A stretch of 38,858 nt of DNA from Alphaproteobacteria bacterium (GTDB lineage Bacteria; Pseudomonadota; Alphaproteobacteria; Thalassobaculales; Thalassobaculaceae): NCBI GenBank assembly GCA_024742605.1, contig JANSYC010000035.1, positions 1 to 38,858 on the forward strand, written 5' to 3'. A program made the translations under genes and the position numbers. The notes under the pieces are model-generated. The model did not search any database. It was given only the letters and a program-made list of their open reading frames with translations, and was not told where the DNA came from. Position 1 is the first letter of the stretch. Every line of letters starts with the position of its first letter. This document shows, in pieces, positions 9,127 through 11,540 of the stretch.

Positions 9127-10287
9127 CTAGTCGTCCAGTTCCACGAGCTCGATTTTCTCGGCCTTGGAATCGTATGCGAAGGCGATACGACCGGCCTTCA
9201 CCGCCAATGCGTCTTCGCCGAACACCTTCCGACGCCAGCCGCGCAAGGCCGGAACATCCGCATTGTCGTTTATCGCGATGGCTTCCAAGTCGTCGGCATT
9301 GGCGACCAGTTTCGGAGCCACGTCGTGGTCTTCACAGTTCAGGCGCAGCAGGACCTTCAGGAGGTCGATCATCGGCTGCTTGCCCGCCGGCATCTCCTGT
9401 TTTTCCTCGACCTTCGGCCAGGTCTCCTTCGGACTGTCGAGCGCCTGTTTGACCGCCGACAGAATGGCCGCGCCGGTCTTGCCGCCCGCGCTGTCGCTGT
9501 TGAAGGCTCTGGACCTTGCGAGATCGGCAGTTGTGGTCGGGCTTTGGGCCGCGATGTCGACCAAGGCGTCGTCCCGGATAACCCGGTTGCGGGGAACGTC
9601 GCGCTCTTGGGCCTCGCGCTCTCGCCATGCCGCGAGCGCCTGCAGGACCGCGAGGAATTTCGGCTTGGTGCTACGGACCTTCAGGCGTTTCCAGCTGTCT
9701 TCCGGGGCTGTCAGATAGGTCGAGGTCGCGGTCAGGGTCGCCATCTCCTCGTCCAGCCAGGACGACCGATCGGTCTTGGCCAGCCGATCCCGCAAGGCCT
9801 CGTAGCTGGGACGCAAATGGATCACGTCGGCCAGCGCATAGGTCAGTTGATGCTCCGACAGCGGCCGATGACTCCAGTCGGTAAATCGCGAGGTCTTGTC
9901 CAACTTGACCCCGGTCAGGGCCTTGACCATGCGGTCGTAGCTGATGGCATCGCCAAAACCGCAGACCATGCCGGCAATCTGGGTGTCGAAGATCGGACTC
10001 GGGACCGTCCCCATGCGATGGACGAAGATCTCGATGTCCTGGCGTGCGGCATGAAAAACCTTCAGCACGTCCGGATTTGCCAAGAGATCGTAGAGCGGCG
10101 TCAGGTCAATACCGTCCGCCAGCGGATCGACTGCCACCACATCGGCCTCACCGGCCAACTGTACGAGACAAAGCTTGGAGTAGTAGGTCTTGTCCCGCAT
10201 GAACTCCGTGTCGATGGCGACATAGGGTTCTTTTGCGAGCCGAGCGCACAGCTCCGCGAGTTCGGTCGAGTCTGAGACGAATGTCAT
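9127..10287 (-). CDS. rnd: Ribonuclease D
   Basis: About 386 residues from ATG 10287 (MTFVSDSTELAEL), the usual family start; the reading frame is open further upstream but that part is not conserved. RNase D trims the 3' ends of tRNA and other small RNAs. The DEDDy exonuclease motifs are all visible: AIDTEFMR (Asp, Glu), FHAARQDIEIF (Asp), and LTYALADVIHL (Tyr and Asp four apart). A C-terminal region beginning near AVLQALAAWREREAQ is the HRDC domain used for RNA binding. The gene converges on ppx and diverges from the SPOR lipoprotein gene across a 236-base region. Confidence 0.95.
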   Translation of the reverse strand: MTFVSDSTELAELCARLAKEPYVAIDTEFMRDKTYYSKLCLVQLAGEADVVAVDPLADGIDLTPLYDLLANPDVLKVFHAARQDIEIFVHRMGTVPSPIFDTQIAGMVCGFGDAISYDRMVKALTGVKLDKTSRFTDWSHRPLSEHQLTYALADVIHLRPSYEALRDRLAKTDRSSWLDEEMATLTATSTYLTAPEDSWKRLKVRSTKPKFLAVLQALAAWREREAQERDVPRNRVIRDDALVDIAAQSPTTTADLARSRAFNSDSAGGKTGAAILSAVKQALDSPKETWPKVEEKQEMPAGKQPMIDLLKVLLRLNCEDHDVAPKLVANADDLEAIAINDNADVPALRGWRRKVFGEDALAVKAGRIAFAYDSKAEKIELVELDD

Positions 10288-10417
10288 GTACTTGCTATAC
10301 ACCACACCCACGGGGACGCAACCACCCGCCTCGATTTGCTCCGAGATCTGTGGAGATTTGTCCGGCGATGCGCGCAGCGCTTCTGTCGGCCGGTCACTGA
10401 TCGGATGCAGCCAGACT

Positions 10418-10439
10418 CCCACGAACCACGACTCGTGGG
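10418..10439. repeat. Inverted repeat CCCACGA/TCGTGGG
   Basis: CCCACGA (10418-10424) and TCGTGGG (10433-10439) form a perfect 7-base inverted repeat with an 8-base spacer, overlapping two of the GANTC sites. It could be an operator or a hairpin; no T-tract follows on either strand. Confidence 0.45.
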
Positions 10440-10464
10440 GACTCGAGCCGAATCGGTTCTTGCC

Positions 10465-10478
10465 ATTTGTTCACAAAT
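10465..10478. promoter_or_regulatory. 14-base palindrome upstream of the SPOR gene
   Basis: ATTTGTTCACAAAT is ATTTGT and ACAAAT around two bases, 46 bases before the SPOR start codon. It is AT-rich in a GC-rich setting and could be a transcription factor site. It does not match the FixK/Fnr (TTGAT-N4-ATCAA) pattern; the binding protein is unknown. Confidence 0.35.
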
Positions 10479-10523
10479 CGCTCAAGATTCGTCCCATAAC
10501 AATCTGAATAACGGGGGGCATCC

Positions 10524-11540
10524 ATGGCCAAGCATCTCTTTTGGGTAGCCGGCCTGCCGCTGATTCTCGGAGGATGTCTACCGCTTCCGTTCACGATTGC
10601 GTCATCTGCGATAACCGGGATGAGCTACCTCACAACCGGCAAGTCTGGGACAGACCATGTGATCTCCGCCGCGCGGCAGGAGGATTGCTCGCTGACCAAT
10701 CCGCTCTTTGGAGAAAACGTCTGCGGGGAGATGCACCCAGATGATGACACTTATGTCGCCGTCCTGGCCTATCCCGGAGATCGAGACAATGTCGGGCGGA
10801 GCACTCGCGGAGGGGCCCTGACATCCCCGTCCTTTCCAGTCAACGCGGAAGGGCCCGCTGTACTGGCGCCCGCGCAAGTCGGGCATCAGGAGAGACTCGC
10901 CGCTCTGTCAAATCTGATGGCGCCGCCCCCTGAGATCACAATTGCAGGAATGTCTCTCGAGTCCAAACACGTCACGCAAAGGCCGCAGCGCCAGATCGTG
11001 GTCCAGACCGCCAACGCTGCGACATCGACCACTTGGGCTTCGACCGATACACGACCGAAAGTCCCGACGCGGGCCGTTGAGTTGGCGCCGTTGCCGACCC
11101 CTGGTGGGTTCGATGCACCTATCCCGTCCAAAGTCGATCGGGCGGTCGGAACGGATGTGACCGTTCCGCTCGCCAATGCCAGGCCCTCGGCTCAGCGCGC
11201 CTCGGAAAGGGCGCCCAAGATCATCGACACGCCTTCGGTCAGAGGCGATCAGCCGTCGCTTCCGCGGGTTGAGCACGGCAGCCTGGGGGCTTCCGGGCGC
11301 TACATCGTTGTCGGTTCGTTCAAAGAGCGGGACCGGGCGAATCGCCTGGCGGCGACCCTGGCGGATCATACGCCTAAAGTCCTCGCCGCGACGGTTAAGG
11401 GCGAGCGCTGGAACCGGGTCGCGGTCGGTCCGCTCAACGCGGTCGATGTCTCCGCAGCTAAGGCGTCTATTGGAACGGTTTCCGGCCGGCAGCCTTGGGT
11501 CGTGCGGCTGGAGAACCCGATTGTGCTGGCCGGCAACTGA
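10524..11540 (+). CDS. SPOR-domain lipoprotein
   Basis: 338 residues; the start follows GGGGGGCATCC. A lipoprotein signal ends in the lipobox LGGC (Cys about 18), so the protein is predicted to be anchored in the membrane facing the periplasm. A short hydrophobic part and a Cys-containing segment (QEDCSLTNPLFGENVCGEMHPDD) follow, then a long variable Pro/Ala/Thr-rich linker. The last 75 residues form a SPOR domain (GRYIVVGSFKERDRANRLAATL, then RWNRVAVGPLNAVD). SPOR domains bind peptidoglycan strands lacking stem peptides at division sites. A cell-wall or division role is inferred. Confidence 0.85.
   Translation: MAKHLFWVAGLPLILGGCLPLPFTIASSAITGMSYLTTGKSGTDHVISAARQEDCSLTNPLFGENVCGEMHPDDDTYVAVLAYPGDRDNVGRSTRGGALTSPSFPVNAEGPAVLAPAQVGHQERLAALSNLMAPPPEITIAGMSLESKHVTQRPQRQIVVQTANAATSTTWASTDTRPKVPTRAVELAPLPTPGGFDAPIPSKVDRAVGTDVTVPLANARPSAQRASERAPKIIDTPSVRGDQPSLPRVEHGSLGASGRYIVVGSFKERDRANRLAATLADHTPKVLAATVKGERWNRVAVGPLNAVDVSAAKASIGTVSGRQPWVVRLENPIVLAGN

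Follow-up and report, generated by a model that had tools for sequence, protein, structure and literature searches.

Conserved GANTC sites upstream of a SPOR-domain lipoprotein gene point to a probable CcrM/GcrA-responsive promoter

The window analysed here, meaning the whole stretch of 38,858 nucleotides of alphaproteobacterial DNA, contains two divergent genes separated by a spacer of 236 bases. The minus-strand gene rnd (9127..10287) encodes ribonuclease D with DNA_pol_A_exo1 and HRDC domains, and its start is taken to be the ATG at 10287 in preference to a GTG at 10422. The plus-strand gene (10524..11540) encodes a protein of 338 amino acids, in which the SPOR-domain lipoprotein of the original prediction is readily recognised: residues 257–328 match the Pfam SPOR model with 33.9 bits against a cut-off of 21, and a lipobox (LGGC) precedes the rest of the chain, its Cys18 being invariant in 19 of 19 aligned orthologues. 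SPOR domains bind denuded septal glycan. FtsN was considered as an identity for the protein and was ruled out by this lipoprotein N terminus, since the N terminus of FtsN is membrane-spanning and non-lipoprotein.

The N-terminal segment of the lipoprotein (encoded at 10524–10811) and its relatives matched no Pfam or NCBIfam model. It is characterised by the lipobox Cys18, a GK..DH..S pattern, Cys55 and Cys67, the last two cysteines also being invariant in the 19 orthologues. A search of 385 genomes of the class recovered it in 95, including three of the window's own family-level group. It is apparently an undescribed conserved segment. The same genome encodes a second SPOR lipoprotein (L223, C131), with GANTC at −48 and −37 from the start of its gene. 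An RlpA-like SPOR lipoprotein (C48) is also present, with zero GANTC within 200 bases of the possible starts near its N terminus.

All five GANTC sites of the locus lie in the spacer between rnd and the SPOR gene. An exact base-level pattern scan of the window returned the same five coordinates as the original prediction, namely GACTC at 10414..10418, 10430..10434 and 10440..10444, GAATC at 10450..10454 and GATTC at 10486..10490 (all listed without strand), and the 10-base phasing attributed to three of them is true of 10430, 10440 and 10450. The site at 10430 forms the centre of a 13-bp palindrome, CCACGA-C-TCGTGG (10426–10438). A palindrome is centred on this site in the sister species too, but with another sequence, GTCGCGA-C-TCGCGAC (L049:3901–3915), two flanking pairs differing on both sides; these palindromes are a possible dimer site or hairpin.

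The original estimate of the background, one GANTC per 256 bases, is too high for this genome, which is poor in the motif: the whole window contains 105 GANTC, while 227.5 are expected from shuffles. This agrees with the published finding that Alphaproteobacteria, Rickettsiales excepted, are at least twofold depleted of GANTC (PMC3973325). A sample of 438,858 bases, comprising the window and twenty 20-kb stretches of the same genome, gave a GANTC density of 2.33 per kb in called coding DNA and 3.20 per kb between called genes, the gene calls being crude. Only two places in this sample hold at least five GANTC within 77 bases, the SPOR spacer and L128:1918–1986, and a single one of 5000 dinucleotide shuffles of the spacer yielded five in 77 bases. 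Genome-wide, 90 GANTC triplets with gaps of at most 30 bases were counted, versus 21 for the reversed pattern. The other dense place extends to six GANTC in about 110 bases (L128:1918–2028, C103), between an ORF resembling a methyltransferase and a hypothetical one near 2012–2522.

The closest comparison is provided by a sister species, an uncultured Rhodospirillaceae MAG (L049, with an identical stretch in G014), of which 8.9 kb were aligned at 84% identity. The sister keeps four of the five spacer sites, lacking that at 10414, versus five of 23 GANTC in the flanks, which are almost entirely coding. The two species agree at every one of the 16 fixed bases of these four sites but at 56 of the other 84 bases in 10400–10499, and the 10-base phasing of 10430, 10440 and 10450 is preserved despite differing bases in between. 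GANTC sites are selectively conserved in the orthologous promoters, and in the sister the surrounding DNA has diverged.

Of the 36 genomes of the family-level group, 19 have a match to the SPOR protein, and rnd lies divergently beside its gene in all 19; the 17 genomes with no match include many small or incomplete ones, and a search at the order level covered the same 36 genomes. The 19 spacers (8 genera, 3,710 bases) contain 52 GANTC, at least one in each, versus 15.5 ± 3.7 with a maximum of 29 in 1000 shuffles, though the genomes are related and tests assuming independence therefore overstate the significance. No other palindromic five-mer of the form XYNY'X' (16 in all) is as frequent in the spacers or as enriched over the flanks as GANTC, which stands at 14.0 per kb versus 2.0 per kb in the flanking genes (6.9-fold). 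Three spacers (g2, g9) taken each alone are no richer in GANTC than their own shuffles, and several others are marginal. The depth of conservation varies among the sites: 10486 is kept across genera, 10430, 10440 and 10450 within the genus, and 10414 is not conserved. The original prediction depended on the cluster persisting in orthologous promoters, and with four of five sites kept in the sister and GANTC in every one of the 19 spacers, it does persist. A feature sought in CcrM/GcrA promoters, GANTC that is conserved in orthologues and no more than 200 bases ahead of the start codon, is present at the SPOR gene.

Upstream regions of other genes in these genomes served as controls and are far poorer in GANTC. 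The 200 bases upstream of recA hold five GANTC in 3,200 bases (five of 16 genomes with any), those upstream of cpn10 hold 15 in 3,600 bases (nine of 18 genomes), and those upstream of mraZ hold four in 3,200 bases (four of 16 genomes). For recA (17 of 30 loci) and cpn10 (18 of 30 loci) a single locus was used in each genome, mostly in those of the 19; for mraZ (26 of 30 loci) those of the 19 alone were counted. Fisher tests of these genes against the 19 spacers ignore relatedness and are a rough guide. Four GANTC in 72 bases (L115:14431–14502, C62) occur in the window's genome far upstream of mraZ/rsmH, the start of a division and cell-wall gene cluster, at 338–405 bases from mraZ, and the corresponding stretch of the sister has three. 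Initially regarded as another conserved cluster, this one is not claimed beyond the genus because the 200 bases upstream of mraZ are GANTC-poor across the family.

Relatives of the SPOR lipoprotein were also located at 27 loci outside the group, and rnd adjoins them in five. After omission of L099 (no Cys found) and L095 (112 upstream bases only), 15 of 25 loci carry GANTC between −130 and −75 relative to the lipobox codon; of the 16 palindromes it is the densest there, with 13.8 per kb against 8.0 for the next, in a span picked after the family's positions were known.

A sigma-70-type promoter can be proposed for the SPOR gene. Its predicted −35, TTGCCA (10460..10465, plus strand), lies just downstream of the site at 10450, and the TTGC is invariant in 16 aligned orthologous promoters. 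An ad hoc scored scan across the orthologues placed a weak −10, CAAGAT (10483..10488, plus strand), 17 bases past the −35; a strict sigma-70 consensus scan returned zero promoters in the region. GANTC site 10486 overlaps this predicted −10. None of the five sites falls between the two predicted hexamers, the TSS as well as the −10 being placed by prediction. An alternative register, with the −10 at a conserved AA some bases further downstream, a CAGAAA-like −35 and GATTC in the spacer, was considered by eye on an alignment; the TTGC register is preferred for its invariant TTGC and its good fit to the g8 promoters. The motif TTG-N-ANGATTC occurs 37 times genome-wide versus four for its reversed form, a comparison that is uninformative, the reversed motif itself being rare. 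The extended motif YGAKTCK fits two of the five sites, 10430 and 10450 (minus strand), and not 10486; in B. subvibrioides no YGAKTCK preference was seen (PMC7987155).

The architecture of the −10 region varies within the family. Eleven of the 19 genomes have nAnGAT, or a sequence close to it, 17 bases past the −35 hexamer, its last bases starting or holding a GANTC located at −38 to −42 from the SPOR start codon. The five genomes of one genus, g8, have a spacing of 16 and a −10 of TACAAT or TAAAAT without the −10 GANTC, and their ribosome-binding site is flanked by GATTC and GAATC, at −21/−20 and −8/−7. The three g11 genomes combine the same flanking GATTC/GAATC with a retained −10 site. Such pairs around a G-run ribosome-binding site were seen in L021, L023, L025, L026 and L031–L034 and in none of the window's genus; they could pair into a small RNA hairpin. 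The combination of a weaker −10 with GANTC, as against a stronger −10 without it, can be read as an activator-dependent promoter and its activator-independent relative.

Both proteins needed for methylation-dependent control are encoded in the genome. The presence of ccrM, on which the original prediction hinged, is indicated by a nearly full-length match to the solved CcrMI, the best PDB match (E 5.9e-156), and by a RAMA domain; the NCBIfam CcrM model gave an E-value of 2.6e-186, yet under that model's cut-off. A gcrA gene is indicated by the Pfam GcrA model above its cut-off and by the solved GcrA as best match (E 3.3e-24), both the DNA-binding and the sigma-binding parts being matched; the NCBIfam GcrA model again fell under its cut-off, yet with an E-value of 3.6e-27. 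CcrM and GcrA are known here from their genes, and their activity is presumed. Four GANTC lie in about 158 bases upstream of ccrM itself (L018), and upstream of gcrA (L016) they occur at −232, −182, −161, −151 and −32, some within the preceding gene, which makes feedback possible.

Taken together, it is probable that 10414–10490 is the CcrM-methylated region of a GcrA-responsive sigma-70-type promoter for the SPOR lipoprotein gene. The control by CcrM and GcrA put forward originally gains support from ccrM, gcrA and the conserved sites, with methylation, binding, direction and timing predicted from the DNA. The promoter TTGCCA-17-CAAGAT would drive the lipoprotein gene, and CcrM, if active as its presence suggests, would methylate the GANTC adenines. 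GcrA would be drawn to the promoter and would help RNA polymerase to open an intrinsically weak −10. The phased upstream trio may add binding positions on one DNA face. Replication would leave the sites hemimethylated until CcrM restored them, so that transcription would track the cell cycle and the peptidoglycan-binding lipoprotein would be supplied around division.

The same sites might serve mainly the divergent rnd, or both genes, with the SPOR gene a bystander. Caulobacter rnd (CCNA_01776) is an essential gene reduced in the ccrM mutant (−0.68 by array, −0.92 by qRT-PCR) and is listed in the same table with a GANTC conservation of 5 (PMC3973325), and GANTC occurs 57–79 bases from the rnd start in nine of the 19 orthologous spacers; both genes may therefore be methylation-controlled. 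Against rnd as the main target, the most shared site keeps a fixed distance to the SPOR start (−38 to −42) and a variable one to rnd (148 to 198) and overlaps a −10 predicted on the plus strand. In the window all five sites are at least 127 bases from rnd and no rnd-proximal site remains, and outside the family many loci keep GANTC, yet rnd is the neighbour in only five of 27. An rnd-centred arrangement is improbable. Only marginally better odds are given to the idea that the bases are conserved because they form a core promoter or bind another regulator, GANTC being incidental. The overlap of the most conserved site with the predicted −10 and the palindromic form of the 10430 site in both species agree with it, and LexA boxes are an example of other sites that can give rise to conserved GANTC (PMC7987155). 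However, the TC past the −10 persists only where GANTC itself does, the sister also preserves upstream sites outside the core promoter, no LexA-like GTTC-N6-8-GTTC box was found in the region on a search of the window, and none of the other palindromic five-mers is as enriched as GANTC.

The sign of the control could also be reversed, methylation being repressive and the promoter firing when hemimethylated after passage of the fork or when a MucR-like protein blocks CcrM. In Caulobacter, TSSs with GANTC between −35 and −10 are activated at 40–60 min, whereas those with GANTC outside this interval, as in the promoter predicted here, are lowest then (PMC4287350), and MucR binds some permanently unmethylated sites (PMC7987155). 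On the other hand, highly conserved promoter GANTC is over-represented among the genes most reduced in the ccrM mutant (PMC3973325), and the weakness of the predicted −10 where the site is present suggests activation; repression by methylation therefore seems unlikely, to about the same degree as incidental conservation. Chance or the AT-richer composition of the spacer can be dismissed almost entirely: GANTC is in general somewhat commoner between genes, but the shuffles, the other five-mers, the upstream regions of other genes and the conservation in the sister all contradict this origin.

A GcrA-responsive promoter of the SPOR lipoprotein gene is thus the preferred reading. A more far-reaching interpretation, namely a class-wide and undescribed CcrM/GcrA output in which GANTC is built into a weak −10 and its m6A, read by GcrA, is the switch, is offered tentatively and is rather doubtful. 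If it held, the g8 promoters, with their stronger GANTC-free −10 and GANTC at the ribosome-binding site, would belong to a series tracing the rewiring of a methylation-dependent promoter. If the preferred reading is true, a cell-envelope lipoprotein would join the conserved GcrA/CcrM outputs in a lineage outside Caulobacterales, suggesting that different lineages time different SPOR proteins by one methylation clock. Since some orthologues have GANTC in the −10 and others a stronger −10 without it, the effect of GANTC position can be tested directly across the series. A partial literature search on GANTC, GcrA and CcrM together with SPOR lipoproteins found no description of this promoter.

The proposed mechanism is of a known kind in an unusual arrangement. 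Caulobacter GcrA binds sigma-70 polymerase, recognises promoter m6A and speeds open-complex formation (PMC7403470). The nearest parallel is ftsN of Caulobacter crescentus (CCNA_02086), termed a sporulation-domain protein (PMC3667746) and described as a direct GcrA target, the promoter of which retained 14% of wild-type activity when its GAnTC was mutated (PMC3885167). In both cases the genome has ccrM and gcrA, and the gene of a SPOR-domain protein has GANTC in its promoter. The present gene differs from ftsN in encoding a lipoprotein with a conserved N-terminal segment beside rnd, in its five sites and in the overlap of the main site with the predicted −10; the ftsN promoter rests on mutation data, while that of the SPOR lipoprotein is predicted from its sequence. 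The locus also resembles Caulobacter rnd, a ribonuclease D gene with a conserved upstream GANTC that is ccrM-dependent there. Cell-cycle promoters with GANTC read by GcrA include ctrA P1, mipZ and podJ, mipZ having two juxtaposed sites (PMC3667746), and of the 96 Caulobacter cell-cycle TSSs that have GANTC no more than 50 bases upstream, only 11 have more than one site (PMC4287350). The SPOR lipoprotein promoter shares promoter GANTC sites with ctrA P1, mipZ and podJ, and reading by GcrA is proposed for it; however, the ctrA P1 site lies at −28/−29 and that of podJ P2 at −24 (PMC4287350), whereas here one site overlaps the predicted −10 and the others are upstream of the −35.
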